This document shows, piece by piece, positions 4,214-28,820 of a stretch of DNA of 38,364 nucleotides. Both the position numbers and the translations under genes were made by a program. Under the pieces are notes generated by a model, which saw nothing but the letters and a program-made list of their open reading frames with translations, ran no database searches and had not been told where the DNA came from. The stretch covers positions 1-38,364 of the forward strand of contig JACZXL010000002.1 in assembly GCA_022571635.1 (NCBI GenBank), given 5' to 3'. Within the stretch, counting starts at the first letter, position 1, and each line of letters begins with the position of its first letter. The DNA comes from Planctomycetota bacterium (lineage in GTDB: Bacteria > Planctomycetota > Phycisphaerae > Phycisphaerales > SM1A02).

Positions 4214-4217
4214 GGGT

Positions 4218-9418: not shown

Positions 9419-9444
9419 GACCTGCCTCCTTCGGTTGTGGCCAC

Positions 9445-9810: not shown

Positions 9811-9830
9811 TTTGTACAGGAGAAACGACG

Positions 9831-11690: not shown

Positions 11691-11695
11691 AGAAA

Positions 11696-12052: not shown

Positions 12053-12080
12053 TTGGGTTTCCAGAGGGGCGCGTTACACT
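12053..12080 (+). promoter_or_regulatory. Candidate promoter for the cytochrome c / SCO operon
   Basis: TTGGGT (12053-12058), a 16-base spacer and TACACT (12075-12080) form a plausible sigma-70-type promoter about 100 bases before the cytochrome c start. The same -10 hexamer occurs at 9593-9598. Confidence 0.4.
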
Positions 12081-12178
12081 CGTGGTCGGAAAGCTCGGCG
12101 GTGGAGCCGGCGAAGGTCTAAACGGGGAAATGTCGGCTGGGGCGGTAGGTAACTGTGCCCAATGCGAAATCCGAGTCT

Positions 12179-12742
12179 ATGAACAAGACGAGACTCCGCG
12201 ATCTCGATCGTCGTGTCCGGGGAACAGTCGGCGCGCTGACCATGGCCGCGGTGGGACTCCTGGCCGGCGGTTGCGATGACGACGGGAGAAACCGCGTCAC
12301 CAAAGAGGGCGCCGAGGGCGTGGCGACCTCGGGTCTGGCCATCAGCGCCCCCGAAGAACCACTCGATCACGACAAGCGTCGTCGGCTGTTGCGTGAGAAG
12401 TTGCGGGCGGCATTGGGAGAACATTACGACGCGCCACTCCCGCAGGCCACCGAAGACGATCTGAAGAAGGGCGCTGAACTCTGGAGCGTGCTGTGCCTTG
12501 GTTGCCACGGCCACGATGCCGCCGGTCGGCGGACCCTCTCGCGAATGCTTCCCATCCAGCCCGGCAACCTGACCGATCCCGAGCGCGCCGCGTACTTCTC
12601 GGGCCAGGCGAAGCTCTGGATCGTCGCAGAAGGAAGCCCGGGAACGCCAATGTTCGGTTGGAAAGAAATCCTGACGGAGGAAGACATCCGGGCTGTGGTC
12701 GCCCATCTGGGAACCTTGATGCCCGCGAAACAAGAGCGCTGA
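12179..12742 (+). CDS. Lipoprotein mono-heme cytochrome c
   Basis: The 187-residue protein has a lipoprotein signal with Cys32 (LLAGGC), a charged helical linker and a class-I-like cytochrome c domain. The heme site is CLGCH (106-110) and the likely axial Met is Met158 in GTPMFGW. It would carry electrons at the outer face of the cytoplasmic membrane. A GTG at 12155 is an alternative start, but ATG 12179 gives the better lipoprotein n-region. Its TGA overlaps the ATG of the copper-chaperone gene, so the two are translated together. The pairing suggests a role in electron flow to, or assembly of, a copper-containing oxidase. Confidence 0.88.
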   Translation: MNKTRLRDLDRRVRGTVGALTMAAVGLLAGGCDDDGRNRVTKEGAEGVATSGLAISAPEEPLDHDKRRRLLREKLRAALGEHYDAPLPQATEDDLKKGAELWSVLCLGCHGHDAAGRRTLSRMLPIQPGNLTDPERAAYFSGQAKLWIVAEGSPGTPMFGWKEILTEEDIRAVVAHLGTLMPAKQER

Positions 12743-13818
12743 TGAGATATCAGATCCAAAGTCTGTCGTGCGCCCTTCCCCTGGCCATCGGCGTGCTCCT
12801 CCTTTACCCCGGCTGCCGGAATGCGGAGGAGCAACCGACCACGCGCGCTCAGGAACCGGAGACCGAGGATTCGTACAACGCTCAAAGAATCACCCCCGAT
12901 GGAAAGCTCGTCGCACATGACTTTACGCTCACGGATCAGCATGGCCGCCGCTTCCAGCTCAAGGACCAGCGCGGCCGGCCGGTGCTGCTGTTCTTCGGTT
13001 ACACGCACTGCCCCGACGTCTGTCCGATGGCACTTTCGAGCTGGGCCAAGATCGAGGATCTGCTCGGTGTTCGAGCGACAGAAGTGAGCTTCGCGTTCAT
13101 CACCGTCGATCCGGAGCGGGACACGCCTCAGCGTCTCGCCAAGCACATGGCCATCTTCAGTCCGCGTTTCCTTGGACTCAGCGGAACACCGGAAGAGCTC
13201 GGTAAGGTCTTCGAAGCCTACGGGATCAGCGCCGAAAAAGTCCCGGTGTCCGCTGGTGCGCTGGGCTACTTGGTCGACCACTCAACCCAGATGTTCCTGA
13301 TCGATCAAGACGGAGCGATCAGGAATCAGTTCGACTACCGCACGCTGCCGGACACGATCGCGAACAGACTCGAACGACTCCTGCGCAGCTCGGACCCCGT
13401 AACACTCGTCGTCCAAGATGCCTGGTCCCGGCCGACCGCACCCGGTCGGGCCGGCGCGACAGCGGCCCAAGCCGGCCACGAGATGGGTGATCAGGAGAAG
13501 CTCGGCCCAGGCGTCGTCTACCTATCGATCGTCAACCAGTCTGATCGTTCTGATCGTCTGCTCTCGGTGCATTCCTCCGTTTGCTCCGTGGCCGAGATGC
13601 ACAAGACCACCATGGACGGCAACCACATGCGGATGGTGTCGGTCCAAGGGGGCGTCGAGATTCCCGCCGGCGAGACGACCGAGTTTGCGCCCGGTGGTCT
13701 CCACATCATGCTCATCGATCTGCACTACGACCTCCTCGCCGGCGAGCGCTTCGAGCTCGTGCTCGTCTTCAAAGAAGCCGGCGAGATCATGGTCGACTGT
13801 GAAGTACGCGCTCCTTGA
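12742..13818 (+). CDS. SCO1/SenC - PCu(A)C fusion copper chaperone, lipoprotein
   Basis: The 358-residue protein has a lipobox ending at Cys25 (LLYPGC). Residues about 50-215 are a SCO1/SenC thioredoxin-like domain with the copper site Cys90 and Cys94 (THCPDVCP) and His180 (VDHSTQ). Residues about 222-355 are a PCu(A)C (DUF461) domain with its His/Met copper motif: Met286-His287, Met298 and His321-x-Met323. SCO proteins mature the CuA centre of cytochrome c oxidase, and PCu(A)C proteins deliver Cu(I) to SCO or the oxidase. Here donor and recipient functions are joined in one chain. The ATG overlaps the cytochrome c stop (ATGA). No oxidase subunits lie in the window. Confidence 0.94.
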   Translation: MRYQIQSLSCALPLAIGVLLLYPGCRNAEEQPTTRAQEPETEDSYNAQRITPDGKLVAHDFTLTDQHGRRFQLKDQRGRPVLLFFGYTHCPDVCPMALSSWAKIEDLLGVRATEVSFAFITVDPERDTPQRLAKHMAIFSPRFLGLSGTPEELGKVFEAYGISAEKVPVSAGALGYLVDHSTQMFLIDQDGAIRNQFDYRTLPDTIANRLERLLRSSDPVTLVVQDAWSRPTAPGRAGATAAQAGHEMGDQEKLGPGVVYLSIVNQSDRSDRLLSVHSSVCSVAEMHKTTMDGNHMRMVSVQGGVEIPAGETTEFAPGGLHIMLIDLHYDLLAGERFELVLVFKEAGEIMVDCEVRAP

Positions 13819-13832
13819 ATCCAATCCGCCAT

Positions 13833-14037
13833 TAGAGCAGTTTCAATGAAGACGTAGCGGCTGCATGCGCTGGTCGCCTGGCGCCACGATACATTTGCCG
13901 GCCCCGACGGATCATCGGCGCGACTCCGGTGGCACGGGCGAGGTTCCGATTGAATCGGGATACCATCGGTTTTGAGGCCGCGACGTGGTCCCGTTCCTGC
14001 CATGGCGTGACGCTACAGGATCATTGAAACCGCTCTA
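13833..14037. mobile_element. 205-bp inverted-repeat element, probable IS630/Tc1-mariner-type MITE
   Basis: The left end (13833-13849, TAGAGCAGTTTCAATGA) and right end (14021-14037, TCATTGAAACCGCTCTA) are inverted repeats of 17 bases with one mismatch. Weaker similarity (CGTAGCG against TGTAGCG) continues inward. Both outer ends are TA, the target duplicated by IS630/Tc1-mariner elements. The interior has no credible gene. It lies just after the SCO-PCu(A)C stop. The following 14038-14241 holds no recognisable gene. Confidence 0.6.
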
Positions 14038-14241
14038 GTAGCGCCGTTCCTGGGGAGGGCTCCATCCGGACATTGCGTCGGCGCCGGGAGACTGAACGCC
14101 TCGTTCGGGCGATGCGATTCGAGGCCCTGGATGCTCCGAGTTGCACTCGCCTCGCGCGCTGCGCCCGTGAGCGCTCACCACTGCTCTATCACGGGGGTGG
14201 TACGACGACCATTGGACAGTTGCACGCGCATTGATCCTCGA

Positions 14242-16470
14242 TCAGCCGGTCATATCGACGCGGACGAGCTGACGCTCGTCAAAAGCGTCCCGCCCCTCCG
14301 TCACCGTGATCCACGAGTCGAGCGGAACGTTCTCGAACACCTGGCGGGTGTTGGAGGTCGGCCACCATATCTCGAGCGACTCGATCGCGGTGGCGTCGCC
14401 GAGGCCGATCTCCTGGCGAGCCGGTGAGCCGCCGAAGCTGCTGACGGAGCCGACGGCGCGGTGGATTCGGCGAGGCCCGTCCGGCGTTTTGACGCGGACG
14501 TCGATGCGCGCGCCATAACCGGCGCGGTTCGTCTTCGTCCCGACAAGCGAAAGGTAGAGGTAGCGATGGCCGTGGCCGGGGTTCAGGAACAGGGCGTTAT
14601 GGAAATGGTCGCCGGGGTAGAAGCCGCCAAGCTGGTGGTAGATGTCCTGGTCGCCGTCGTTGTCGATGTCGGCGAACGCGACGCCGTGCCCCTTTTGGAG
14701 ATGTCCGAAACCGCCCGAGGTCGTCACGTTCTCAAAGCGCCGTCCGCCGTCGTTACGGAGCATGACGTTGGGCATGAGCGTCTCGTAGTTCGGATCACCG
14801 GTCGAGAGGTAGATATCGAGGAAGCCGTCGTTGTCCAGATCGCCGAAGTTCGCGCCCATGGGCAGCCACGCGTGATCAAGACCGACCTCCTCGGTGACAT
14901 CGACGAACGTGCCGTTGCCCCGGTTGCGATAGAGGGCTGGCGGGTGCGCTCGGAATGGCTGGCCGAGGTGATCCGCGGCCACGGCGGCGATCGAGGCGTC
15001 GGTGGTCGGCGAATAGTCATAGGAGGCCACGAACAGGTCGAGCCATCCGTCGTTGTCGTAGTCGAAGAACCATGTCGCGAAGCTCCAGCGGGGCCCGACG
15101 ACGCCGGCCAAGGCGGCGACATTGACGAAAGTTCCGTCACCGTTGTTTCGGTAAAGGCGGTTGGCGCCGAAGTTCGAGACGAAGATGTCGAGGTCGCCAT
15201 CGTTGTCGTAGTCGCCGACGGTGACCCCCTTCGCGTAGCGGTCGTTGGTGACCCCCGCGGCGACGGCAACATCGACGAACCGCCCGTCGCCTTCGTTCCG
15301 AAAGAGTTGTGAGGGGAAGTCGCCGCCGGAGGGGTCGAAGGGCCGCGACTCGTTCCCGACGTAAAGATCCAGATCACCATCACCGTCGAAGTCGCCCCAC
15401 GCGGCGGTCTGCGTCGGTGCCGCCGGCGTTGCGAGGCCCGCCTGACGGGTCACATCGGTGAAGGTGCCGTCGTCCTCCCGACGCAGCAGCGAGTTTCGGA
15501 TGCGCCCGTCATCGAGGAGCCACGCCCCGCGCAGGACGAGCACGTCGATGTCGCCATCTCCGTCGTAGTCGCCGCCGATGCAGTTCAGCCCGCCGAGTTG
15601 TTCGGTCGCCCTCGACGCCGCGGAACGGTCCTCAAAACCTCCGGCCCCGTCGTTGCGGTAGTACGTGAGCGGACCCTCCGGGTCGTAGGTCGATGTCACG
15701 ATGTCCAGGAAGCCGTCGCCGTCGAAGTCATCGACAATGACGCCGCCGCAGGCGTTGAAGGTGTCGATCCCGAGCCTTCCCGCCACCTCAGGGAAGCGGC
15801 CGATGTCTCGGTCGGAGGCAAACGCCAGCGGCGGGATGACGAGCCCCTCGGGCACCCCGTCCGGATAGATGCCCTCGGCCATCGCGGCGATGTTGAGCAG
15901 CCATCGCGCGCCGAGATCCTGCGGGAATCGCTCAAGGTAGGCCTCGTAGTCGCGACGCGCCTGCGCGGCCGGAGCCTTCTCCACGTGCACTCCGCCGCCC
16001 TGGAGAGGGAAGATGCAGCCCTCCGGGTTCCGGCGCGCGATGCAGTTCCTCACTTCGGCCTTGCGGAGGTAGGCGAGAGCGCGGTTGCGCAGGACGGCGG
16101 GGTACCGGTCGAGCGCGTCCTCCGCCTGGCACATGGCGACCGCCTCGTTGGCCAGGGTGACGGCTTCGTCGACGAGACCGAGCCGGAGAAGCTCGAGGAT
16201 CAGCGCGGCGCGGAGCCCGAGACGCCGCTTCAGCGACGCTTCCGGCGACCACTCGATCCGCTGGCGCAGCTCCTCGACTTTTCCCTCACCGAGATACTCG
16301 TTGGATCCCTCGCGCAGCTTGCGGGCAATGGCCTCAAACTCCGGTCGCTGGTTGGTCGGAGGCCCGTCGACGTCGGATCGCGGGGGCGGAACCGGCGCCT
16401 GAGCAGCCGCGGGAAGGGGCATGCCGGCGATGCCGATCAGCGGGACAAGCGTCGCAAGCATCCGCATCAT
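14242..16470 (-). CDS. CRTAC1-family protein: helical/TPR-like N-terminus, VCBS/FG-GAP propeller, ASPIC/UnbV domain
   Basis: The 742-residue protein begins with a signal peptide (about 1-24). Residues about 35-210 are helical and TPR-like (EAVTLANEAVAMC, AVLRNRALAYLRKAEV, ARRDYEAYLERFP). From about 230 to 640 are repeated VCBS/FG-GAP blades with the Ca2+-binding pattern D-DGDGDLD (for example DYDGDGDIDVLV, DFDGDGDLDLYV). The last 100 residues are an ASPIC/UnbV domain (GYGARIDVRV, QEIGLGDA, WWPTSNTRQVF). These proteins are extracellular and probably bind partners or carbohydrate; no enzymatic role is established. ATG 16470 is chosen over GTG 16473. It follows the CRTAC1 gene at 16540-18237 by 69 bases on the same strand. 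Confidence 0.92.
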   Translation of the reverse strand: MMRMLATLVPLIGIAGMPLPAAAQAPVPPPRSDVDGPPTNQRPEFEAIARKLREGSNEYLGEGKVEELRQRIEWSPEASLKRRLGLRAALILELLRLGLVDEAVTLANEAVAMCQAEDALDRYPAVLRNRALAYLRKAEVRNCIARRNPEGCIFPLQGGGVHVEKAPAAQARRDYEAYLERFPQDLGARWLLNIAAMAEGIYPDGVPEGLVIPPLAFASDRDIGRFPEVAGRLGIDTFNACGGVIVDDFDGDGFLDIVTSTYDPEGPLTYYRNDGAGGFEDRSAASRATEQLGGLNCIGGDYDGDGDIDVLVLRGAWLLDDGRIRNSLLRREDDGTFTDVTRQAGLATPAAPTQTAAWGDFDGDGDLDLYVGNESRPFDPSGGDFPSQLFRNEGDGRFVDVAVAAGVTNDRYAKGVTVGDYDNDGDLDIFVSNFGANRLYRNNGDGTFVNVAALAGVVGPRWSFATWFFDYDNDGWLDLFVASYDYSPTTDASIAAVAADHLGQPFRAHPPALYRNRGNGTFVDVTEEVGLDHAWLPMGANFGDLDNDGFLDIYLSTGDPNYETLMPNVMLRNDGGRRFENVTTSGGFGHLQKGHGVAFADIDNDGDQDIYHQLGGFYPGDHFHNALFLNPGHGHRYLYLSLVGTKTNRAGYGARIDVRVKTPDGPRRIHRAVGSVSSFGGSPARQEIGLGDATAIESLEIWWPTSNTRQVFENVPLDSWITVTEGRDAFDERQLVRVDMTG

Positions 16471-16539
16471 CACGAGCGAGTATAGGAACGCGCTGAAGCA
16501 CGATCCGCGATGCCGTCGGGCCGAATGTCGGGCCCGGCC

Positions 16540-18237
16540 TCATCGTGTCTCCGCCGGCGATGACCTGCTCTCGGCGGCATCTTGGAGTTCGTCGCCCTCG
16601 CCCCGGCGGAGGGTGTGAACCGCATCCGCAGGGAGGCCGCCGAAGCTTTCGCGCACACCGCCCACCCAGCGCACGACAACGTCCGTCACGCCGCCGGCCT
16701 CACCGAGCCCGACGTGGACCCGGGGATCGTTGGCCGCAAGATAGCTGTAGGCTGTGCGTACACCCCGAATGACCGATCGGTCACCGACGACCATGGTGAT
16801 GGTAGCGCCGATGGCGTCGCTGCCCCGCTCGTCGAGCACGCGGAACATGATCCAGTGTCCGCCCCGGCCCGCGCGATTGTGCAGCAGGTAGGGGGCCCCG
16901 TCGCGGTTGACGACGAGCACGTCCACGGCCCCGTCGTTGTCGATGTCGCCGAAAGCCGCCGCCCGACTCACGTCGATGAGCGTCTGGGCCGTCCCGCCGC
17001 GGGGCGTGACCTCCTCGAATCGCCCCTCCGCCGTGCCCCGAAAGAGCAGGTTGGGCTCGGCCATATCGATAATCGTCACCCGGCCATTGGCTTCGTACAG
17101 GTCGAGCCATCCATCGTTGTCGAAGTCGATCCACCCCAGGCCGAAACGCGTGAAGACCCGGCTCGTGACGGCCAGCCCCGCGTCGGCGGTGGCGTCGATG
17201 AACGCGCCGTCGCTATTACGGTAAAGCGAGTCCGATTCCGTCCGCCGGTTGCAGACCAGCAGGTCGAGGTCGCCGTCTGAGTCGTAATCGGCGGCGACGA
17301 CGCCCATGCCCGCCTTGGGGACGCCATTCTCGTCAACGGCACAGCCCAGCAGCACGCCCTGATCGGTGAAACGTCCGGCGCCGTCGTTGACCCACAGCCG
17401 GTCCATCATCCCGTCGTTGGCCACAAACACGTCGATGAAGCCATCGTTGGTGAAGTCGCCCGCGATCACGCCGAGCCCGGTACCCATCCCGTCGGCGATC
17501 CCCGTCACCTCGGAAACGTCGGTGAACGTCCCGTCGCCATTGTTCATATACAGCGTGTCGGCCGTGGGTGCGTTGTACGCCTCGGGGGGGCAGTAGTCCA
17601 GCTGCGCGATGCTCAGGTTGTAACATTCAAGCTCGGTGACGACGGACCAGTTGATGTAGTTCGTGACGAAGAGATCCAGGTCGCCGTCTGCATCGTAATC
17701 CAGGAACGCCGCACTGGCGCTCCAGCGGGATTCACCAACACTCGCCCTGTCCGTGACATCGGTGAAGTGCCCGTCACCGTCGTTGCGAAGCAGAACATTG
17801 GGACCGAGGTTGGTCACGTACAGGTCGAGGTCGCCGTCCCCGTCGTAGTCGCCGGTGGCGACACCCATGCCATAGCCGCGATCGGCGGATCCGCTGCCGG
17901 CAGTGACGTCGGTGAATGTTCCGTCGCCGTTGTTACGGAACAGTTGGTTGGGCGGTCGCTCCTCGGCGGGCCCCTCAGCCGGTCCGCCCTGGACGAAGTA
18001 TGCGTCCAAGTCGCCGTCGCCGTCCATATCGAAGAGCGCAACGCCGCCGCAGACGTTCTCCGGCATCAGAAACTGCACGCCGTGCCCGGACTCGTGGACA
18101 AAGTTCAGACCGGCGGCCGCCGCCTGCTCCTGAAACCAACCAACGGGCGTTTGCGGCGCGGCAGCGGGCGTGCCCGTCTCTCGATTGCAGGCAAGAAGGG
18201 TCAGACAGAAGCACAGCGCGCCGCGGAGTCGGGTCAC
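16540..18237 (-). CDS. CRTAC1-family lipoprotein (VCBS/FG-GAP propeller with ASPIC/UnbV domain)
   Basis: About 565 residues. A GTG start at 18237 gives a lipoprotein signal ending LTLLAC (Cys17). Residues about 45-450 contain successive VCBS/FG-GAP blades (DMDGDGDLDAYFV, DYDGDGDLDLYVTN, DYDADGDLDLFVTN and others). The ASPIC/UnbV domain follows (SDAIGATITMVV, SYLAANDPRVHVGLG, VVRWVGGVRESF). The GTG overlaps the TGA of the TPR gene (GTGA), so the two are translationally coupled. It is closely similar to the plus-strand protein at 21476-23236, sharing NYINWSV versus NYIVWSV segments and the D-CPPEAY versus DYCSPTAY segment. Location should be the outer face of a membrane. The function is unknown. 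Confidence 0.93.
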   Translation of the reverse strand: MTRLRGALCFCLTLLACNRETGTPAAAPQTPVGWFQEQAAAAGLNFVHESGHGVQFLMPENVCGGVALFDMDGDGDLDAYFVQGGPAEGPAEERPPNQLFRNNGDGTFTDVTAGSGSADRGYGMGVATGDYDGDGDLDLYVTNLGPNVLLRNDGDGHFTDVTDRASVGESRWSASAAFLDYDADGDLDLFVTNYINWSVVTELECYNLSIAQLDYCPPEAYNAPTADTLYMNNGDGTFTDVSEVTGIADGMGTGLGVIAGDFTNDGFIDVFVANDGMMDRLWVNDGAGRFTDQGVLLGCAVDENGVPKAGMGVVAADYDSDGDLDLLVCNRRTESDSLYRNSDGAFIDATADAGLAVTSRVFTRFGLGWIDFDNDGWLDLYEANGRVTIIDMAEPNLLFRGTAEGRFEEVTPRGGTAQTLIDVSRAAAFGDIDNDGAVDVLVVNRDGAPYLLHNRAGRGGHWIMFRVLDERGSDAIGATITMVVGDRSVIRGVRTAYSYLAANDPRVHVGLGEAGGVTDVVVRWVGGVRESFGGLPADAVHTLRRGEGDELQDAAESRSSPAETR

Positions 18238-19760
18238 GGCGCCCTCTTTCGCATCCCCAGCCGACGTAGCGCCGCCCGGGTCTGCGGGTCGCTGGGCGCC
18301 AATTCGAGAGCCCGCATCAACGCCGAGTCCGCGTCCTGGAGCCGATCCAGGTTCAAGTAGGCGATCCCGAGCTGACGGAACACCCTCGCCTCGCTCGGTG
18401 ACCGTTTCGTGATCACCTCCAAGTCGCCGGCCGCCACATCCCATCGCTCTAGCCGCATCTCGGTGAGCGCTGCCGCGTAGCGATACTGCACGACCGCGGG
18501 TTCACACCGCGCCGCCTCGTGGTAAGCCGCAGCGGCGTCGGCGAGCGCCCCTTGGCGAAGAAGCAGCTTTCCGCGCAGCGCGTGGGCGACGGCATAGGTC
18601 GAGTTCAGCTCAAGCGCCCGGTCGAGGTGCGCCAGTGCCTCTTCCGCTCGATCCTCCATCGCCGCCAGGGTTCGAGCCATCTCAAGATGCACCGAGTAGT
18701 ACGTCGGACGCTGAGATAACGCATCGGTCAGCACCGCCGCACTCTTGTCGAGCCGTCCGGCATTGCGGTAGGAAATCGCCATGGCTTTCAGCAGACCTAC
18801 CTCATCCGGCCGCTGTTCCCACAGCTCGTCGAGCAGGGCCGCGGCGTCATCGGGGCGGTGGCGCGCGAGCAGCCGGTTGGCTTCGGCGAGCGTCGGAAAG
18901 ACGAACATTCGAGACTGCTCCACCTCCCGACGCCAGGGTTCTTGGAGGTCGAGCCCCGCACCGACACCGCCCACGAAGGCCGCCGCGGCGTCCTCGTGGC
19001 GTCCCAGCCCGCGGTAGGCGCGGCCCAACAACTGGCGTGCATACCGGGCGTTGTTCTCGTCGCTAAACGCGATGGGCTCCAGTAACTCGACTGCGCGGTC
19101 CCACTGTTGGCGCCGCAGACTCACCCTGGCCAGGCCGATCCGGCCGACGGTGTCTTGCTCATCGATCGCCGCCGCTTGCTGGAACGCGGCTTCGGCGGCC
19201 TCGAGGTCGCCCAGCTCCAGTTGCCACAAGCCGACGCGGAAGTGGGCAGGGATAAGGTCTTCGTGCAGACTTCTCACGTGATCCATCGCCTCGCACGCCC
19301 CCTCCAGATCACCCAGCTCGCCGCGGACGCAGGCCAGCCCGTACCAACAGCGCGCCGCCGACTCATCGAGTTGGACCGCACGTTCGTAGACCTGTTCCGC
19401 CAACTCGTAGAGATGATGGGCGTCGTAGAGCACCGCCAGCTCGCGCCAGGCGGCCGCATCGTCTGGGCTTGCGTTCGCCTTGACCAACATGCGCCGGATC
19501 GTCGCGGCCATCCGGGGGCGGAAGTCGTCGAGATTGGGCGGGAGTAGGGGCTTCGGCGCTTTGACCACGAGATCGGTGAACGGAGTGTCCTGGGGCGGTT
19601 CGCGACGGCCAGCCCACCACCACGCGGCGCCGATCGACACCACGGCCGCCGCGGCGAGCGCTGCTCCGAACAACGCTCGTGGCGAGATCACACCCAATCG
19701 ACATCGACCGCGGAGGGCGTCAAGCGGATAGGGAAACGTGGAACGATAACTGCGCTGCAT
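18234..19760 (-). CDS. Membrane-anchored TPR protein
   Basis: The 508-residue protein has a short basic N-terminus, one membrane span at about 29-50 and then a long array of TPR units (for example YELAEQVYERAVQLDES, EAAEAAFQQAAAIDEQD, ADAAAAYHEAARCEPA, DADSALMRALELAPSD). TPR arrays are protein-protein scaffolds; here the array should face the periplasm side, where the coupled CRTAC1 lipoprotein also resides. The start at 19760 has AGAGG close upstream. It is the first gene of the minus-strand TPR-CRTAC1-CRTAC1 operon and diverges from a paralogous TPR gene across 209 bases. Confidence 0.92.
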   Translation of the reverse strand: MQRSYRSTFPYPLDALRGRCRLGVISPRALFGAALAAAAVVSIGAAWWWAGRREPPQDTPFTDLVVKAPKPLLPPNLDDFRPRMAATIRRMLVKANASPDDAAAWRELAVLYDAHHLYELAEQVYERAVQLDESAARCWYGLACVRGELGDLEGACEAMDHVRSLHEDLIPAHFRVGLWQLELGDLEAAEAAFQQAAAIDEQDTVGRIGLARVSLRRQQWDRAVELLEPIAFSDENNARYARQLLGRAYRGLGRHEDAAAAFVGGVGAGLDLQEPWRREVEQSRMFVFPTLAEANRLLARHRPDDAAALLDELWEQRPDEVGLLKAMAISYRNAGRLDKSAAVLTDALSQRPTYYSVHLEMARTLAAMEDRAEEALAHLDRALELNSTYAVAHALRGKLLLRQGALADAAAAYHEAARCEPAVVQYRYAAALTEMRLERWDVAAGDLEVITKRSPSEARVFRQLGIAYLNLDRLQDADSALMRALELAPSDPQTRAALRRLGMRKRAP

Positions 19761-19801
19761 ATGCCTCTTGCCTCCGGCCCGCCAGCAAACCGGTTCGAGA
19801 C

Positions 19802-19807
19802 ATTCTA
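19802..19807 (-). promoter_or_regulatory. Possible -10 element (TAGAAT) for the minus-strand TPR-CRTAC1 operon
   Basis: On the minus strand TAGAAT lies about 40 bases ahead of the start at 19760, in a G TAGAAT G context. The same GTAGAATG octamer occurs on the minus strand at 28871-28878 ahead of the sulfatase-like gene starting at 28820. No good -35 hexamer is seen, so the call is weak. Confidence 0.25.
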
Positions 19808-19842
19808 CGCCACGTCGAAGGGGCTTGGGCTGCTCCTGACTC

Positions 19843-19871
19843 TTGTAAACAAGGCGAGCAGTTCTTACGAT
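19843..19871 (+). promoter_or_regulatory. Promoter for the plus-strand TPR-CRTAC1 operon, with overlapping 12-bp palindrome
   Basis: TTGTAA (19843-19848), a 17-base spacer and TACGAT (19866-19871) make a good sigma-70-type promoter, predicting a start of transcription near 19878. A near-perfect palindrome CTTGTAAACAAG (19842-19853) covers the -35 element and could be an operator for a dimeric regulator. Confidence 0.5.
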
Positions 19872-19969
19872 GGAGTTGGGCTCGGGATGCCAATCGAGTC
19901 CTCGAATCTCCGCTCGTCTCTGTTCAGGGCGTGCGTGACATGGCCGCCGGCAAAATGGAGAATGCGCAG

Positions 19970-21466
19970 ATGACGTCGCGGGGCGGCGATGACGGCGGGG
20001 TGAGTGAGAACCAGGTCGCCCAACCCGCGGCCCGGGCGCATCGCTTCCGGGCCCGCCACGCAGCGGCCGCTGTCATCGGTCTTGCGATCGTCGGCCTCGT
20101 CACGCTGGGGATCTGGCGGCGGGACGGGCCGGCGCCGGTGTTGCCCGAGGAATTGGAGCGCCTCGATCCGGAGTTGGTTTCGATGATCGAGGATCTTGCT
20201 GCCGCCGTGCAGGCGAATCCTCAAGATCCAAATGCCCACGGCCGATTGGGGCTCGTCTATGAAGCCAACGGACTGTTCGACGAGGCGCGACGATGCTATG
20301 AGACCGTTGGGCAGCTGGCGGACAGCACACCGTGGTGGAGCTACCACCTGGCGATCGCGACGCGTCAGGCCGGGGATTTTGACGGCGCAATGCAGTTGCT
20401 GCGCTCGCTGGCCAGGAAGCATCCGAAGTTCGCTGCCCTCCACCATCGGCTGGGCGCGGCGCTGCTGGAAGCCGGCCACCTCGACGAGGCGGCAATTGCG
20501 TTTCAGCGCGCCCGTGGCTTGGCTCCATCAGCACCGGCGCCCATGGTCGGCTTGGCAGACGTCAAGCTGCGCCAGCGCGACCACGCTGGCGCCGCATCCC
20601 TGCTTCAGCGGGCGATCGAGATCGATCCCAACTACAAGGCGGCGCACTATTCACTGGGGCTCGCCTACCGCGGCCTGGGCCGGTCACAGGAGGCGGCGCG
20701 GGAGCTCGCGCGGGGACTCAATGCGCCGCCGCGATTCATGCCGGACCCACTTGCCAAACAGCTGCGGCAATACATGGTTTACCCTGCCGGGCGGGCCGAA
20801 CGCGCCGTGGAGCTGGCTGCGGCCGGGCAAACGGCCGAAGCGGCCGCGCTGCTCGAGAAAGGACTCGTCACCCGACCTCAAGACATCGGGATGATCAACG
20901 AGCTGTCGAAGATCTACGTTCAAATGAATCAATACGACAAGGCGCTGGAGCTGTTATCGCGCGCGAAGCGCGTCAATGAGCACGATTTCCGGACGTTCAT
21001 CAGTCTCGCACGCTGCTTTCTGGCGATGGGTCGTCACGCTGAGGCCCTGACCCACGCGGACCGCGCGGCGGACCTGGCGCCGACGAACGTGCGCACGCAT
21101 CTCAGCCGGGCGAGCGTATTGCGTGCCATGGGGCGGCATGACGAAGCGCTGCCGGCGCTCGAGGCGGCCGTTCAACTCGAGCCGCGCTCCGCCGAGCTTC
21201 ATGTTCGCCTCGCCCAGACCTGCCTCCGACTAGGGCGCGATGGCCAGGCCGAAGCGCACGCTCGGACGGCAATTGACCTGTCTCCGGAGTCGTTCCAAGC
21301 CCACGTCACGCTGTTTGCCGCCTCCATCAGGCAGGGACACCTGCAGGAGGCGGCTTCGACGCTATCGGTCGCTCGCCGGCTCGCGCCTGACGATCGGCGA
21401 ATCACCGCTATGCAACGTCGGTTGGCCGAGCGGCGGGCGAGCGAGCAGACGCCGGAGGAAGGCTAG
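19970..21466 (+). CDS. Membrane-anchored TPR protein (paralogue of the divergent TPR gene)
   Basis: About 498 residues: a polar basic N-terminus, one membrane span (about 31-49) and many TPR units to the end (DEARRCYETVGQLADS, DEAAIAFQRARGLAPS, AGAASLLQRAIEIDPN, DEALPALEAAVQLEPR). In-frame ATGs at 19940, 19955 and 19970 are all possible; 19970 is preferred because GGAG lies nine bases before it. The architecture matches the divergent TPR protein at 18234-19760, including a VVKA/PVLPEEL-type linker after the span, then a TPR array. Its stop is nine bases before the CRTAC1 gene, so they form one operon. The role is inferred to be scaffolding. Confidence 0.9.
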   Translation: MTSRGGDDGGVSENQVAQPAARAHRFRARHAAAAVIGLAIVGLVTLGIWRRDGPAPVLPEELERLDPELVSMIEDLAAAVQANPQDPNAHGRLGLVYEANGLFDEARRCYETVGQLADSTPWWSYHLAIATRQAGDFDGAMQLLRSLARKHPKFAALHHRLGAALLEAGHLDEAAIAFQRARGLAPSAPAPMVGLADVKLRQRDHAGAASLLQRAIEIDPNYKAAHYSLGLAYRGLGRSQEAARELARGLNAPPRFMPDPLAKQLRQYMVYPAGRAERAVELAAAGQTAEAAALLEKGLVTRPQDIGMINELSKIYVQMNQYDKALELLSRAKRVNEHDFRTFISLARCFLAMGRHAEALTHADRAADLAPTNVRTHLSRASVLRAMGRHDEALPALEAAVQLEPRSAELHVRLAQTCLRLGRDGQAEAHARTAIDLSPESFQAHVTLFAASIRQGHLQEAASTLSVARRLAPDDRRITAMQRRLAERRASEQTPEEG

Positions 21467-21475
21467 CATCCACGC

Positions 21476-23236
21476 GTGAATCGAGACGACACCGAAATGA
21501 CGATGCCGCAGCGCTTTGGCGGGCGAGGTTGGACGGTCGGCGTCGTGGTTGTCGGCGCGGCCGCGTTTGTCGCGGCCGGCGCATGGTGGTGGCTCGGCCG
21601 GGACGATCCGAACGCGGTGGAGCGCATGACTGCGGGCGACGCGACGACGGCGTGGTTTGAGGACGTGACGGATCGCTCCGGCATTGACTTCACCTACATG
21701 CGCGGGCTGGAGACGAACTACTGGTTGCCGGAGATCATGGGTGGCGGCGCGGCGTGGTTGGATTACGATGGCGATGGCGATCTCGATCTCTACCTGGTCC
21801 AAGGCGGGCAGATCGATGGCGACGCGGCAACCGTCCCCGGCAACCGCCTCTATCGCAACCATGGAGACGGCACGTTCGAGGATGTGACGGATGCGGCTGG
21901 CGTCGGAGACCGGCAATACGGCATGGGTTGTGCGTGCGGTGACTATGACAATGACGGCGACATCGATCTGTACGTGACCAACGTGGGGCCCAACGTCCTT
22001 TACCGCAACGACGGCGACGGAACCTTCACCGACGTGACGTTGGAGGCAGGGGTTGGGGATCCGGGATGGGGGACCAGCTCCGCCTTCGTGGATTACGACG
22101 CCGACGGTGACCTGGATCTGTTCGTCGTCAACTACATTGTGTGGTCCGTGGATCGTGAACAGAAGTGCTTCGCGCACGTTCAGGACTACTGCTCACCAAC
22201 CGCCTACGACGCCCCAGCGCCCGACACGTTGTACCGCAACGAAGGCGACGGCACCTTCGTCGATGTGAGCGAGTCGGTCGGTCTCAGAGCAGCGTTTGGA
22301 AACGGGCTGGGCATCGCCTGCGGTGACTTCAATCTGGACGGACACGTCGATATCTTCGTGGCGAATGACAAGACGGTCAACCAGCTATGGATCAACACCG
22401 GCGACGGGCAATTCAGGGACGAGGCGCTTATCGCCGGGTGCGCCGCCAACATGCACGGGGTGGCGGAGGCGGGCATGGGCGTAGCCGCGGTCGACGTGGA
22501 AGGCGATGGGGATCTGGATCTGTTCATGACGCACCTGCGCGACGAGTCGAACACCATGTACCTGAATCAGGGAGGTATGTTCGAAGACATAACGCCGACG
22601 ACGGGATTGTCAGCGCCGAGCATTCCCTTCACGGGCTTCGGCATGGGATTCGCGGATTTCGATCATGATGGCCGGCTCGATCTGTATGTGGCCAATGGGC
22701 GAGTGGGAAGGTATAAGCCGCTGTGGAGTCAGACGGACCCCTACGGCGAGCCGAACCAGTTGTTCCGCGGGGTCGGGGCCGGACTGTTCGAGGACGTCGC
22801 GCCGCGCGGCGGCGTCCTCCACGAACCGATCGGAGCCAGCAGAGCTGCGGCGTTCGGCGACTATGACAACGATGGCGACATCGACGTCGTTATCGTCAAT
22901 AGCGGCGCCAAAGTCCAGCTCCTGCGCAACGTGGCGGGCGGACGGGGCAACTGGATCATGTTTCGCCTGCTCGACAGGCGCCAGCGTGACGCGCATGGCG
23001 CCATGATCCGGATCGAAGCGGGCGGCGCGGTCCGATGGCGTTTGGCCGCTCCGACCTACAGCTACTGCGCCAGCAACGACCCGAGAGTCCACTTCGGTCT
23101 GGGAGACTCGTCGGTGGTCGATGAGGTCAGGGTCCGATGGCCGAGCGGTCGCATCGAGTCGTTCGGGTCAATGCCGGCAGGGAGGCTCCACGAACTGCGG
23201 GAGGGCTACGGACGTGCCGCGGCGATGGGCGGCTGA
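21476..23236 (+). CDS. Membrane-anchored CRTAC1-family protein (VCBS/FG-GAP propeller with ASPIC/UnbV domain)
   Basis: The 586-residue protein starts at GTG 21476 (ATG 21497 is an alternative). It has an N-terminal span at about 19-40 instead of the lipobox used by its minus-strand paralogue. Propeller blades with the D-D-DGD-D pattern occupy about 60-470 (DYDGDGDLDLYLV, DYDNDGDIDLYVTN, DYDADGDLDLFVVN). The ASPIC/UnbV domain closes the protein (SYCASNDPRVHFGLG, VRVRWPSGRIESF). It follows the TPR gene by nine bases. The next gene converges on it from the opposite strand with a 21-base gap, in which I see no terminator hairpin with a T-tract. Confidence 0.92.
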   Translation: MNRDDTEMTMPQRFGGRGWTVGVVVVGAAAFVAAGAWWWLGRDDPNAVERMTAGDATTAWFEDVTDRSGIDFTYMRGLETNYWLPEIMGGGAAWLDYDGDGDLDLYLVQGGQIDGDAATVPGNRLYRNHGDGTFEDVTDAAGVGDRQYGMGCACGDYDNDGDIDLYVTNVGPNVLYRNDGDGTFTDVTLEAGVGDPGWGTSSAFVDYDADGDLDLFVVNYIVWSVDREQKCFAHVQDYCSPTAYDAPAPDTLYRNEGDGTFVDVSESVGLRAAFGNGLGIACGDFNLDGHVDIFVANDKTVNQLWINTGDGQFRDEALIAGCAANMHGVAEAGMGVAAVDVEGDGDLDLFMTHLRDESNTMYLNQGGMFEDITPTTGLSAPSIPFTGFGMGFADFDHDGRLDLYVANGRVGRYKPLWSQTDPYGEPNQLFRGVGAGLFEDVAPRGGVLHEPIGASRAAAFGDYDNDGDIDVVIVNSGAKVQLLRNVAGGRGNWIMFRLLDRRQRDAHGAMIRIEAGGAVRWRLAAPTYSYCASNDPRVHFGLGDSSVVDEVRVRWPSGRIESFGSMPAGRLHELREGYGRAAAMGG

Positions 23237-23257: not shown

Positions 23258-26110
23258 CTACTCCTCGCGATACGGCTGTCTGGTTTCGTATCGGGCTCGC
23301 CGGGCGAGGATGAGATCAGCCAGTTGCGCATCGTCAGCGTGACGGGCCGCCTCGATCGCCCGATCGGCCACCGCCACCGCGTCCTCGAAGCGTCCCACTT
23401 CCGCGTAGGCGGCGGCGAGGGTGTCCAGGACGTTTGCGTCCTTTGCGTTGCTCAGTTCCGCCGCGTGCTCCGCCAGCACGAGTGCCTCAGGACCGTTTCG
23501 CAGGTCGCTTCTGGACGACGTGGCCAGGAGCCAGGCGAGCGTATTGGCCAGGTCGACGCGACTGGGAAGCTGCTCTTGTCCCCGGCGCAGCAGCTCGATG
23601 GCCCCGGCTCCGTCTTCAGTTCTTATGCGGAGCATGGCGGCCGGTATGTAGCCCGGGGCGTACCGCGGGGCAAGCTCGAGCAGCTCGTCGTAGGTACGGA
23701 CGGCTTCGGCCAGCTCACCTGCGGCTTGTAGTGCGTTCGCCAGATGATGCAGTGCGATGGGAAACTCAGGATTCAGCTCCAGCGCCTGGCGAAGTTGATC
23801 GACGGCTTCGCCGTAGTGTTCGCGCAGCAGGAAGTTGGTTCCGAGATGCCGGTGGGCGATCGCGCTTTCGGGGAGGAGCTCGACGACGCGTGCGAAGCTG
23901 GCCCCCGCATCCTCTTGGTTCTCGCCGTCAGTGTGGATTCGTCCCAGTTCGTTGTGAAGTAATGCCTCGTCCGGCTGATCCTGGATCGCCTGCTCAATGT
24001 GCTCGATCGCCCGTGTCGTCTGTCCGGTTCGCTTCAGGGCGGTGACCAGTGCCATGTGCGCCGGCACGAGCCGCGGACTCAGGCGCAGCGCCTCGGTCAA
24101 CGCCGGGATCGCCTTCTCGAATCGGCCCGCCGCGTTGAGGGTCCTCCCCTTGTGCAGGTGAATCCGCGGCAGCTCCGAGTCAATCTGCAGCGCCTCTTCA
24201 TAGAGGCCCAAGGCCGGATCGAAGCGCCGTTGGGCGGTCAGGAGTATGCCCAGATTGATGCGACTAACCACCTCCTTGGAGTTGTGATCGATGACCACGC
24301 GGTAGCGCTGCATCGCCTCGGCGTACTCACCGTTCAGGGCCAGCAGGTTTCCCAGCGTCCTGCGATGCTCGTAGCCGTCTGGCTTCAACTCTTCGACGAG
24401 ACGGAACATGGCGATCGCCTCGTCTGTGCGCTGCTGCGATATCAGGCACTTGCCGAGGAAGCTCGCGGCCAGCGCGCTCGCCGGCTCGAGCTCCAGGAAG
24501 CGACGGTAGAACTTCTCGGCCATCTCGAACCGGCCGGCGTTAAAAGCGCCAAGCCCGTTGGCCCAGCACTCGACCACCTCCATCCGATCCCTGGGACTGA
24601 TGCCTTCCGGCTCAAAATGATCGAGCTCGCTGGCTGAGCGATCGACGTAGTCGAGGTTCGTGCCCAGGTACCCCAGGGCGGCGAGCTGCCTCGCTTCATC
24701 CTCATCGAGTGCCCGCACCTCGCCGCGGCCAGCGACGGGCTCGGGTGATTGGGCGATGATCTCGCGCAGCTCCTGCTTCATCCGACCGGCGCGCTGGGCC
24801 TCGAGCTGGACGAGATTAAACACCTCCTTGCGGTCTTCCGCCACGTGGTACAGCTCGGATCGGGGCGACAGGATGTACTTCCACCCGTCCACACGCAGGG
24901 AGCGCAGAGGAGAGTAGTTCAGGGCGTTCTCTGGGACCATCGTGTCGGAATAGCACGGCAACCGCATGTCGAGGGTCGGATCGGCAAGGAACGGCAGCAG
25001 GCTCGTCCCCTGCATCTGATCCGTTCGCTCCAGTTCCACGAACTCCAGGATCGTTGGCGCGAGATCGACCAGCCGAACCTGCTCCTGGACGACCTGGCCG
25101 GCCGGGATCTGCCCAGGAGACCACATGATCAGCGGGACGTGCAGCGTGCTGTCGTAGAGGAACATGGAATGCGTGTCCTCGCCGTGCTCACGCCGCCCCT
25201 CGCCATGATCCGACGTCAGGATGACCAGCGTCCGGTCACTGAGTCCTAGGTCGCCAAGGGCGTCCATCAGCTCGCCGAACTGCTCGTCGAAGAAGGCGAT
25301 CTCGGCGAGATATCCGTCGGGGAGCTGGCTGGTGAATCGCTCGGGCGCCTCGTGCGGCCAGTGCGGGTCGAAATAGTGAAGGAACATGAAGAATCGCTCG
25401 TTGGCCTGGGCCTTGGCCCTGAGCAGCTCGATGCCGCGACGGGTAATCTCGTCCGCCTTGCGATCGGTCTCGCCCCTGGGGCGCTCCGGTTGGATGTCCG
25501 GCTCCGTCGATTCCTCAAGCACGTCTCGATCCCACAGCTTCGCGAACGGTTGTGTCCTGGGCGCCTCCGACTTGCGCTCCACGTCGCCGAAGGTGTCAAA
25601 GCCCTGTGCCAGTCCATACCTGCGATTGAGCACCATGGCCGCCACCTCGCCATGCGTCGCCCAGCCGGCTGCCTTGAAGATCTCGGCCAGCGTAATGTTC
25701 TCTTCGGCAAGGTTGAAGGCCCCGTTGTCTCTGGCTCCATGCACGAACGGGTAGCTGCCGGTGAGCATGGTGGCGTGCGACGGCAGGGTCAAAGGGGCCG
25801 AGGAGATGCACTGCGCGAAGCGCGTGCCCTGTGATGCGAACCGGTCGATATTCGGCGTCTTGGAGAGCGGATGGCCGTAGCACCCGAGGTAATCGGCTCG
25901 CGTCGTATCGACGGAAACCAGCAGCACGTTGAAGTCCGGCCCGCCGATGCTGGTGGACGCAGCCTCGCCCGACGCCCCGCCGACACCTCCGCTGGCCCGA
26001 TCGTCGTCCGGCGAGGTGCCGCCCTGACACCCCACGACGCCTAGGACCGCGATGCCAAGCACAAGCGCGGCCAGACCACGAAAACGAATCGAGAATTGAG
26101 CTCGCGGCAT
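23258..26110 (-). CDS. Sulfatase-fold (alkaline phosphatase superfamily) - TPR fusion lipoprotein, Thr at the nucleophile position
   Basis: About 950 residues. ATG 26110 gives a lipoprotein signal with Cys28 (LGVVGC) and GGAG eight bases upstream; ATG 26146 is possible. Residues 60 to about 460 are a sulfatase-like domain: NVLLVSVDTTRAD (metal Asp68), APLTLPSHATMLTG and TSDHGEGRREHGE with STLHVP. In formylglycine sulfatases the motif is C/S-x-P-S-R; here it is T-L-P-S-H, with Thr108 at the nucleophile place. Formylglycine chemistry is therefore excluded, and a Thr-based phosphoesterase-type or transferase reaction is more likely. Residues from about 500 onward are TPR units (EKFYRRFLELEPAS, AIPALTEALRLSP, EAVDQLRQALELNPE). 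It ends facing the CRTAC1 gene. The substrate is unknown. Confidence 0.92.
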   Translation of the reverse strand: MPRAQFSIRFRGLAALVLGIAVLGVVGCQGGTSPDDDRASGGVGGASGEAASTSIGGPDFNVLLVSVDTTRADYLGCYGHPLSKTPNIDRFASQGTRFAQCISSAPLTLPSHATMLTGSYPFVHGARDNGAFNLAEENITLAEIFKAAGWATHGEVAAMVLNRRYGLAQGFDTFGDVERKSEAPRTQPFAKLWDRDVLEESTEPDIQPERPRGETDRKADEITRRGIELLRAKAQANERFFMFLHYFDPHWPHEAPERFTSQLPDGYLAEIAFFDEQFGELMDALGDLGLSDRTLVILTSDHGEGRREHGEDTHSMFLYDSTLHVPLIMWSPGQIPAGQVVQEQVRLVDLAPTILEFVELERTDQMQGTSLLPFLADPTLDMRLPCYSDTMVPENALNYSPLRSLRVDGWKYILSPRSELYHVAEDRKEVFNLVQLEAQRAGRMKQELREIIAQSPEPVAGRGEVRALDEDEARQLAALGYLGTNLDYVDRSASELDHFEPEGISPRDRMEVVECWANGLGAFNAGRFEMAEKFYRRFLELEPASALAASFLGKCLISQQRTDEAIAMFRLVEELKPDGYEHRRTLGNLLALNGEYAEAMQRYRVVIDHNSKEVVSRINLGILLTAQRRFDPALGLYEEALQIDSELPRIHLHKGRTLNAAGRFEKAIPALTEALRLSPRLVPAHMALVTALKRTGQTTRAIEHIEQAIQDQPDEALLHNELGRIHTDGENQEDAGASFARVVELLPESAIAHRHLGTNFLLREHYGEAVDQLRQALELNPEFPIALHHLANALQAAGELAEAVRTYDELLELAPRYAPGYIPAAMLRIRTEDGAGAIELLRRGQEQLPSRVDLANTLAWLLATSSRSDLRNGPEALVLAEHAAELSNAKDANVLDTLAAAYAEVGRFEDAVAVADRAIEAARHADDAQLADLILARRARYETRQPYREE

Positions 26111-26327
26111 CAGCCCGGCTCCGGCGTGCGGTGGTACTGAGGCCATCCGTCCTTCCCCTGAAATCAGCCGCGGACTACGAATCGAGCGTCGATCGCGTGA
26201 TCTGACGACACGCGGCGTGCATTTGGAGCGATCGGAGTTTCCCTTTCCTCTCCGGGGAGCACGCGCCGGACGGCGCCAGTCCTGTGGCGGCATGCCGTGT
26301 GGTGTCGACACGGCTCTCATCGCCACC

Positions 26328-28820
26328 TCACCCATCGTCGTTCACCTGATCCTGCGTCTCGGCGCCCGCCCCGTCATCGCCGGCGGTTTCAGCATCCACG
26401 GGGGTCGCCTCGCCAGCCTCTTCAGCGTCCGGAGGCCGTGGAACGTACCGTATTAAGTCCAGCCCTTGCTCCTTCGCCTGCCGGTAGCTCTGCAGACTCA
26501 ACGCAATCCCCTGGACCAGCTGAGCGTCGTGGGGCTTTCCGGACGCTACGGCGATCTTGCGGGCCTTCTCGGCCACGAGGATGGCCTCGTCCAGGCGCAG
26601 CTTCCCCGAATACACCATGCTCAAGGTGTGAAGGTACCTTGGGTCCTGATACCCGGTCTCGAAGCAAACCCGCTCCATCATCGCAATCGCTTCCTGGTGC
26701 CGGCGCATCGACTCGTCCGGGACGGTGACCAGCAGAAAGGCCAGATTGTTGACGAGGCTCAGCTTTTCCGGCGCCCGCTGGATGCCCTCCCGGAGCACGA
26801 CCATGGCCTCGGCGTACCGATTCTTGATGGAGAACAAGCGCGACAGTGCATTGCGGATCATCGGCGCGTCCGGATGCTCCGCGAGCAGGCCCTGAAACAG
26901 CTCGAGAGCCTCGTCCGGCCGATTCAGAAGGAGCATGGCGTCAGCCACCATGTCGGGCAACGCCTCATCGCGCGGCCAGATCGCCAGGGCCTTGGTCAGC
27001 GTTTCAGTCCCTTCGTCAAACTCGCCGGTCTGGATCAGCAATCGGCCCAGCTCCTTGAGCACCAGGAAGTTCTCGGGGTACCGCTCGCCGGCGGCGCGGT
27101 AGAGCTCGATGGCCTCGGCCGTCTCGTTCTGACGGACCCGCAAGCTGGCCAGGGCCATCAGCGGCTCCCATCGTTCCGGGTCGAGCTCCAGCGACCGGGC
27201 GAACTCGGCCTCCGCCCGTTCCAGGTCGCCTGCCTTGCGGTACGCGCGCCCTAGGCTCAAATGGCCCGTGTACAAGTCGGGGTAATCGCGGACGACCTTC
27301 TCCAGCGCTCTCGTCGACTCGGCCAGTCCCTCGGTCTTCTCCAGCCCCAGCGCTGTCAACACGCGCTGCTGGATCGGCATCATGTCTATCGGGTGTGGTC
27401 GTTCGGCGGCTGTCCGCGCATTGACGCCGCCGCCTAGGTATCCCAGCGATTGGAGCCGGGCCAGGGCCGCCGGATCCAACTCGTGCGTCGGCTCGGCGAA
27501 GCCGGCCTGTTCCAGGTCCGCTCCGAAGAAGGCCATCAGTTGCCGCTTCATCCCAGCCGCAGCCTCTTCCCGGGATGCGATGAGGTTCGTTTCCTCGAAG
27601 GGGTCTTGGGAGAGGTCGTACAGCTCGTCTCTGGGCCCGTAGATGTACTTGGTCGATGCGTCGCGGACCCCCAGTAGAGCGGCCCACCCGTGATCCACCA
27701 GCCCTTGCAGCGTTTCGCTGAAGACCAGTCGCGAACCCTCTTCCGGGCGCGTCAGGTCGACCCCGTCGAGTCCGGCGGGCGCGTCGATCCCCAGCATGGC
27801 CAGGACCGTGGGCATCACGTCCACCAGACTCACCAGCCGGCCGACGTGGACGCCGCCGCCGAGCCGCTGCCCGCAACGCATGATCAATGGCACGTGCAAC
27901 GTCGATTCGTAGATCAGGCTCGAGTGCATCCACTCATCGTGCTGCCCCAGCCCCTCACCGTGGTCGCCCGCCACGACCACCAGGGTGTTGTTGGTCAGCC
28001 CCAGATCATCGATCAGCCCGATCAGTCGTCCCAGCTGGGCATCGGCGAGGGCGATCTCGGCGTCATAGGGATGGAGGTTCCCGCTCTCTGGCGCCTCGTA
28101 CGGCCAGTGCGGGTCGTAGAAGTGCACCCAAAGGAAGAACTTGTCGGCGGCGTGCTTGAGCAGCCAGTCCTCGGCCAGCGGGGCCGTCTCGTCCGCGGTC
28201 CGCTCGGCGATCTCCAACTCCTGCGACGTCATTTCATCGTCGTAGTCACCAAAGCCCTGGTCCAACCCGTACTGCGCCTCCAGGACCGCGGCCGACACCA
28301 GGGCCCCGGTGGCGTACCCCTCAGCGGCGAGGACCTCGGCCAGCGTCTGATATTCGTTGTCCAGCCGAAACAGACCATTGGCCCTCGCCCCGTGATGGTA
28401 TGGATACAGCCCGGTCAACAACGACGCGTGCGAGGGCAACGTCGACGGCGCCGGGGCGATCGCCTGGGAGAACAGCACCCCTTCGCGAGCCAGCTGATCC
28501 AGGGTGAATGTCCGGCCCCCGTCGTGGCCATAGCAGCCGATCCGATCGGCGCGGGTCGTGTCGAACGTCACCAGCAGCAGGTTGCAACCCGCCAGCTCAC
28601 CCGATGCCGCAGGGACGACCTCGCTGGCCTGCAAGTCGGCCGCCACGCGGATCGCCCGGGGCTCCACGGGGCGCAGGCTCGACCGCAGCCCGGGGATCGG
28701 AGCCCATCGCACAATCGCAAAGAACGCTGCTGTCACCAGCAAGCCGCCGCCCACCACCCACTGCCACCAGGCCCGCCGTGATCGGCGTGGACGGCTCGTC
28801 TTGGATGCCGTGTCGTTCAC
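26328..28820 (-). CDS. Membrane-anchored sulfatase-fold - TPR fusion, Thr at the nucleophile position
   Basis: About 830 residues. GTG 28820 is chosen because AAGGAG lies nine bases upstream. A basic N-terminus (SRPRRSRRA) precedes one membrane span (about 19-38). The sulfatase-like domain spans about 79-470: NLLLVTFDTTRAD (Asp87), APSTLPSHASLLTG (Thr127 where formylglycine would form) and VAGDHGEGLGQHDEW. TPR units follow (ERAEAEFARSLELDPE, EAIELYRAAGERYPE, EALELFQGLLAEHPD). The C-terminal 40 residues are acidic. It is a paralogue of the gene at 23258-26110, which lies 217 bases downstream on the same strand. The two differ in anchoring, one by lipid and the other by a transmembrane span. 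Confidence 0.92.
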   Translation of the reverse strand: MNDTASKTSRPRRSRRAWWQWVVGGGLLVTAAFFAIVRWAPIPGLRSSLRPVEPRAIRVAADLQASEVVPAASGELAGCNLLLVTFDTTRADRIGCYGHDGGRTFTLDQLAREGVLFSQAIAPAPSTLPSHASLLTGLYPYHHGARANGLFRLDNEYQTLAEVLAAEGYATGALVSAAVLEAQYGLDQGFGDYDDEMTSQELEIAERTADETAPLAEDWLLKHAADKFFLWVHFYDPHWPYEAPESGNLHPYDAEIALADAQLGRLIGLIDDLGLTNNTLVVVAGDHGEGLGQHDEWMHSSLIYESTLHVPLIMRCGQRLGGGVHVGRLVSLVDVMPTVLAMLGIDAPAGLDGVDLTRPEEGSRLVFSETLQGLVDHGWAALLGVRDASTKYIYGPRDELYDLSQDPFEETNLIASREEAAAGMKRQLMAFFGADLEQAGFAEPTHELDPAALARLQSLGYLGGGVNARTAAERPHPIDMMPIQQRVLTALGLEKTEGLAESTRALEKVVRDYPDLYTGHLSLGRAYRKAGDLERAEAEFARSLELDPERWEPLMALASLRVRQNETAEAIELYRAAGERYPENFLVLKELGRLLIQTGEFDEGTETLTKALAIWPRDEALPDMVADAMLLLNRPDEALELFQGLLAEHPDAPMIRNALSRLFSIKNRYAEAMVVLREGIQRAPEKLSLVNNLAFLLVTVPDESMRRHQEAIAMMERVCFETGYQDPRYLHTLSMVYSGKLRLDEAILVAEKARKIAVASGKPHDAQLVQGIALSLQSYRQAKEQGLDLIRYVPRPPDAEEAGEATPVDAETAGDDGAGAETQDQVNDDG

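Follow-up and report, generated by a model that had tools for sequence, protein, structure and literature searches.

The DNA analyzed here, a 38,364-nucleotide stretch of contig JACZXL010000002.1 from a bacterium of the Planctomycetota (hereafter the window), carries two gene pairs that diverge from ~19760–19955, one on each strand, with the same order and architecture. In each pair a gene for a TPR protein is followed by a gene for a protein of the CRTAC1 family; the genes are designated TPRm and CRTm on the minus strand and TPRp and CRTp on the plus strand (Table 1). The initial annotation described these mirror-image pairs and their tight internal linkage, and both features were borne out. 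The open reading frames (ORFs) were found where it placed them, the TPRm stop (TGA) and the CRTm start (GTG) share four bases (GTGA), and 9 bases separate the end of TPRp (21466) from the start of CRTp (21476). The annotation also proposed that the arrangement arose by inverted duplication followed by divergence, a proposal that failed as each half groups with pairs elsewhere in the trees of both protein families. Instead, each half is likely to be an independent, old TPR-CRTAC1 module that is inherited as a pair and that encodes a predicted extracytoplasmic complex.

Relatives of the four genes were taken in 120 regions from the window's genome, two congeners (G001 and G002) and the GTDB family. 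Broad trees comprised 133 CRTAC1 proteins and 87 TPR partners, with CRTAC1 ORFs of ≤500 amino acids or ≤300 bits left out along with loci L085-L111, which repeat L112 and later loci. More careful trees were built with IQ-TREE from 40 of the 87 pairs that were hand-picked for spread. CRTp grouped with loci G000:C309 and G001:C204 and with genus g55 with support values of 99/98, and TPRp showed the same grouping among the TPR proteins with support of 100/100. TPRm grouped with G002:C169 (L074) with support of 98/91, and CRTm was nearest to L075/L120 with weak support (85/65). Constraining CRTm and CRTp as sisters cost 83 log-likelihood units (approximately unbiased (AU) test, p 0.00099), and the equivalent constraint on TPRm and TPRp cost 96 units (AU p 8.3e-7). 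Moreover, CRTp is closer to proteins from a different genus and a different contig (60–62% identity) than to CRTm. As orthologues within the genus differ very little, exemplified by those of C309 and C204, the two window pairs diverged long before the genus arose. Each protein grouped with pairs elsewhere instead of with its counterpart across the divergent region, which the initial annotation had named as the result that would refute its proposal. The two modules trace to different branches of the family and are not a local inverted duplication of one another. Thus, mirror-image gene pairs of equal architecture need not be duplicates.

TPR and CRTAC1 genes are linked as a rule within the family, and the same was true of loci sampled from across the phylum. 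A same-strand TPR-coding stretch was detected within ~2.2 kb for 123 of the 137 family CRTAC1 genes, lying upstream of 94 and only downstream of 29, with none for the remaining 14. The control set comprised 133 other genes from the same regions, each encoding ≥400 amino acids; of these, 5 had such a stretch upstream and 20 downstream (25 on either side). A stricter partner hidden Markov model (HMM) placed a TPR gene upstream of 89 of the 129 CRTAC1 genes that have enough upstream sequence, and 58 of these 89 genes can start in a 4-base overlap with the upstream TPR gene. At the 29 best loci in a phylum-wide sample that covered 10 families, the TPR gene was upstream at 26, downstream at two and absent at one. 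Annotated TPR and CRTAC1 genes also are adjacent in two of three plasmid regions from Acidobacteriota, and the window's genome itself harbors at least five TPR-CRTAC1 pairs.

The partners share a common history. Tree distances of the TPR and CRTAC1 partners were correlated with a Spearman coefficient of 0.80 over 87 pairs, a value that none of 2000 within-genome shuffles of TPR partners attained (25 genomes, 64 pairs; mean 0.39, maximum 0.71). This comparison used FastTree trees, which include some long TPR branches. Furthermore, the two moieties occur in single chains: a protein with TPR, FG-GAP and UnbV_ASPIC domains is encoded at L211:9795-13196, and a protein with TPR and FG-GAP domains at L160:980-4282 belongs to a family with 15 members in six genera among the regions. 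Other apparent TPR-CRTAC1 fusions (L137, L129, L135, L206, L172 and L149) were rejected as the N-terminal extension looks out-of-frame; a separate TPR gene lies upstream in another frame in L137, L129 and L149. Overall, the suggestion in the initial annotation that TPR plus CRTAC1 is a functional unit is well supported by adjacency relative to the control genes, by co-descent, by the single-chain fusions and by the structure predicted for the joined chain, as described below.

CRTm and CRTp each contain six FG-GAP_3 stretches (Pfam; E 7e-52 and 9e-54 in the two proteins) and a C-terminal UnbV_ASPIC domain that scored 47.6 and 59.6 bits against a curated cut-off of 23.4. The AlphaFold2 model of CRTp alone is a propeller (pLDDT 86.4, pTM 0.86; the predicted local distance difference test and predicted template modeling scores, respectively). 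The best match to this model in the PDB was murine CRTAC1 (9etn_A; TMq 0.70 over 570 columns), a whole-length correspondence established for CRTp only with Z 42.1, 458 aligned residues and a root-mean-square deviation of 2.2. Propeller lectins that bind N-acetylglucosamine (GlcNAc) were among the next-best matches. DxDxDG motifs, which are candidate calcium-binding sites, are visible in the CRTAC1 alignment. Two further cysteines that are invariant in the alignment, C231 and C239 in CRTp numbering, would fit an oxidizing, extracytoplasmic location.

The CRTAC1 proteins of the two pairs differ in their anchors, as the initial annotation recognized: CRTm possesses a lipobox, and CRTp has a membrane span. 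The departure from the family is that of CRTp. The lipobox cysteine is kept in 24 of 25 aligned homologues, a subset of the 133 CRTAC1 rows in the tree, and the sole exception is CRTp in which a hydrophobic span without cysteine occupies this position. As all other aligned members retain the cysteine, lipid anchoring is the norm and presumably ancestral, and CRTp has switched to a membrane span. Lipobox counts obtained with a regular expression were inconsistent, missed clear cases such as CRTm and were not used.

Multiple TPR families scored above the curated Pfam cut-offs in TPRm and TPRp. A search of the genome contigs with a TPR query returned only weak TPR matches of 18–33% identity. The initial annotation had suggested predicting the structure of the TPR-CRTAC1 complex. 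TPRp and CRTp share a reading frame, and translating the single intervening TAG as a residue produced one chain of 1093 residues whose alignment comprised 12 readable pairs, 23 single TPR rows and 21 single CRTAC1 rows. In the resulting model TPRp forms a helix at residues 31-50 followed by an all-helical TPR superhelix at residues 72-498, and the TPR superhelix of OGT is a fold match for the TPR part (Z 23.2). The joined chain gave a pTM of 0.82. This value exceeds the ~0.5–0.6 that is expected, as we calculated from how pTM is defined, for such a chain with unplaced domains. TPRp and CRTp therefore are predicted to be placed relative to each other through an interface.

According to these observations, a TPR gene and its CRTAC1 gene, often joined by a 4-base overlap, have been inherited together, and a membrane-anchored TPR superhelix and a lipid- or membrane-anchored calcium-blade propeller are predicted to assemble into a defined extracytoplasmic complex. 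The TPR protein may act as a membrane-bound scaffold, and a face of the propeller may be where a ligand binds. This ligand could be a glycan or glycoprotein and might differ from module to module. That the ligand is of the glycan type is possible without being probable. The hints in this direction are weak and comprise the matches to GlcNAc-binding lectin folds, the glycosidase genes of the window (an alpha-L-fucosidase with a 3-keto-disaccharide hydrolase domain, and a GH127 enzyme), and the glycosidase and TonB genes that neighbor CRTAC1 in Granulicella. More tentatively still, the TPR-CRTAC1 pairs of the phylum may be two-component envelope receptors that have diversified into a repertoire with several per genome. 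Each TPR protein would then be specific to a single propeller, each propeller would bind a ligand of its own, and the pairs would be gained, fused and lost as units.

Certain observations weigh against the interpretation of each half as an inherited module that encodes a complex. The 14 CRTAC1 genes without a TPR neighbor, which include the third CRTAC1-family gene of the window (CRT3), indicate that the propeller is not always paired: both sides were in view for 13 of these genes and the downstream side lay off the contig for one. Gene order also varies, as evidenced by the 29 genes with a TPR stretch only downstream. In five of these cases the upstream side was off the contig, and some of the downstream stretches may belong to the following pair. 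The closest relative of CRTm (L075/L120) is not that of TPRm (L074), although placement of CRTm with L074 was not rejected by the CRTAC1 data (p 0.27). The joined model is a single fused chain of the cognate pair only and was judged by its overall pTM. Finally, the idea of a ligand is a tentative one that draws on resemblance in fold and on carbohydrate-related gene neighbors.

Rather than being a lasting partner, the TPR protein might serve its CRTAC1 lipoprotein specifically as a chaperone or as an export or anchoring factor in the manner of Slam, which also is a TPR protein encoded beside a lipoprotein. The position of the TPR gene ahead of its cognate lipoprotein gene and the lipobox cysteine in almost all aligned CRTAC1 proteins accord with this proposal, as does a weak match of TPRp to the Slam N-terminal TPR model (30.9 bits), which is below the cut-off of 35.2. 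Slam possesses a C-terminal outer-membrane barrel, whereas the window protein lacks a barrel region beyond the TPRs: the joined model showed no strands across residues 1-498, and no barrel family was among the Pfam hits shown. The single-chain proteins with TPR and FG-GAP domains, with or without UnbV, suggest a lasting partnership, and the joined model places the domains with confidence. The proposal thus is unlikely. Shared transcription of proteins that serve one process and never touch would be consistent with adjacency and co-descent by themselves, but the existence of fusions and the joined-chain pTM disfavor this explanation, which is improbable.

The origin of the arrangement also is open to explanations other than independent modules. 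Local inverted duplication of one pair with subsequent divergence could account for the identical order and architecture on both strands and for the 53% identity between CRTm and CRTp over 523 amino acids. Whole pairs have been duplicated elsewhere in the family: contig G042:C472 (L126 6317-16503) bears three tandem TPR-CRTAC1 pairs, of which two are sisters in both trees. In the window, by contrast, sisterhood was rejected in both families by the AU tests under the models used, CRTp is nearer to proteins from another genus and contig, and TPRm and TPRp are just 30% identical over 439 amino acids, rendering the explanation highly improbable. The mirror arrangement is ordinary. When CRTAC1 genes that neighbor each other within 6 kb were inspected (n = 17), 13 were in tandem and two TPR genes were head to head in the window only. 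The head-to-head placement probably is incidental and due to chance within a cluster of paralogues. Alternatively, the lineage might have acquired the entire block horizontally as an island, in keeping with the absence of the block from congener G002 and with the searched genomes, none of which yielded an orthologue of either pair at more than 62% identity. However, DNA of G001:C246 is syntenic and 95–97% identical over most of 5422-14838, with the 95% identity of CRT3 persisting up to the end of the contig inside this gene. The ApbE gene of the window (3774-5249) has counterparts in both congeners, with 85% identity in G002 and 92% in a fragment from G001. Congener G002 (96% complete) has the left flank to position 12571 joined to a 5′ remnant of SULF2 (28305-28937; L083, G002:C72) and lacks ~15.7 kb with the SCO1/PCuAC gene, CRT3, the two pairs, SULF1 and the greater part of SULF2; the best match to CRTp in this genome is 55%. 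The SULF2 remnant at the junction suggests that G002 lost the block, as opposed to the others having gained it, and acquisition as an island is improbable. Contamination of the metagenome-assembled genome by the contig was ruled out by the ApbE identities and the synteny with G001.

Table 1. Coordinates of the paired genes and of adjacent features in the window
Feature	Position	Strand	Description
CRT3	14242-16473	-	Third CRTAC1-family gene, 743 amino acids; FG-GAP_3 and UnbV_ASPIC (Pfam)
CRTm	16540-18237	-	CRTAC1-family protein, 565 amino acids; GTG start; lipobox LLAC
TPRm	18234-19760	-	TPR protein, 508 amino acids; N-terminal membrane span
Divergent intergenic region	19761-19954		Between TPRm and TPRp
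TPRp	19955-21466	+	TPR protein, 503 amino acids; N-terminal membrane span
CRTp	21476-23236	+	CRTAC1-family protein, 586 amino acids; membrane span in place of lipobox
SULF1	23258-26335	-	Alkaline-phosphatase/sulfatase-fold protein fused to TPRs (Pfam); convergent with CRTp
SULF2	26328-28871	-	Second sulfatase-fold/TPR protein (Pfam)

The divergent gap is 194 bp when TPRp starts at the ATG at 19955 and 209 bp when the ATG at 19970 is used, both of which are in frame. A single sigma-70-like match on the plus strand was observed within 19600-20100, and no terminator was found in the same interval. CRT3 is located 66 bp beyond CRTm and SULF1 21 bp beyond CRTp. CRT3 forms a separate clade in the CRTAC1 tree, no TPR neighbor was detected for it, and it stands beside the two pairs instead of being part of them. 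A reading of CRT3 as a TPR fusion was not supported as no TPR was revealed by Pfam or by a custom repeat HMM; the latter was built from 44 repeats conforming to the canonical TPR positions, shuffled sequences scored up to 4.3 bits with it, and a threshold of 12 bits was applied in the adjacency counts given above. CRT3-type genes adjoin another CRTAC1 gene in two other genera (L114 3709-8523 and L165 4624-8588), with a convergent orientation to a CRTp-type pair in G107 and a divergent orientation in G041.

No third partner was common to all clades, which fits a self-contained two-protein module. The pair adjoins a nitrilase-family gene and a gene for a TPR/FG-GAP protein of ~1100 amino acids in several genera (L160, L155, L164, L148, L127 and others), often with a multiheme cytochrome c gene in the same neighborhood; these companions were present near pairs in some clades only. 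SusD was absent from the Pfam families listed for TPRm (18) and from the best 25 of 31 for TPRp, and no TonB receptor gene was found among the portion of the window genes that was scanned.

The window proteins combine an FG-GAP calcium-blade propeller with UnbV_ASPIC and thereby resemble the CRTAC1/UnbV_ASPIC family (cartilage acidic protein 1; 'CRTAC1 family protein' in NCBI), including murine CRTAC1 across its whole length. The ligands of mammalian CRTAC1 are still debated. The window proteins differ from this family in being bacterial, anchored by a lipobox or a membrane span, and encoded with a TPR partner. Homologues of CRTAC1 reportedly extend from cyanobacteria to man, as Redruello is said to have described in 2010. 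On the Acidobacteriota plasmids pACIX901 and pACPOL3 the TPR and CRTAC1 genes likewise are adjacent on the same strand, but there the pairs lie beside genes for TonB-dependent or carboxypeptidase-like receptors, which were not seen by the window pairs, and gene order varies. CRTAC1 genes have been noted inside hydrazine-synthase-like gene clusters of Planctomycetota (PMC12758564). An FG-GAP CRTAC1-family gene thus resides in a conserved cluster in that case also, whereas the partners are enzyme subunits and a TPR partner is not mentioned in the passage concerned. Neither a description of the TPR-CRTAC1 pair nor an assigned function for bacterial CRTAC1 proteins was found in the literature searched, outside of which lay most subscription journals and all bioRxiv preprints. 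A co-inherited, dedicated TPR partner provides bacterial CRTAC1 proteins with a testable biochemical context.

Additional features were noted elsewhere in the window. Sulfatases carry a C/S-x-P-x-R formylglycine motif, and SULF1 and SULF2 have TLPSH at this position. Judged by this motif, the two proteins may be threonine-nucleophile enzymes of the alkaline-phosphatase superfamily rather than sulfatases. Two adjacent proteins with the type I phosphodiesterase/nucleotide-pyrophosphatase fold (Phosphodiest) are encoded at 31768-36020, and the protein encoded at 9831-11690 displays a weak C-terminal match to a GC-type dockerin (20.8 bits, cut-off 29).

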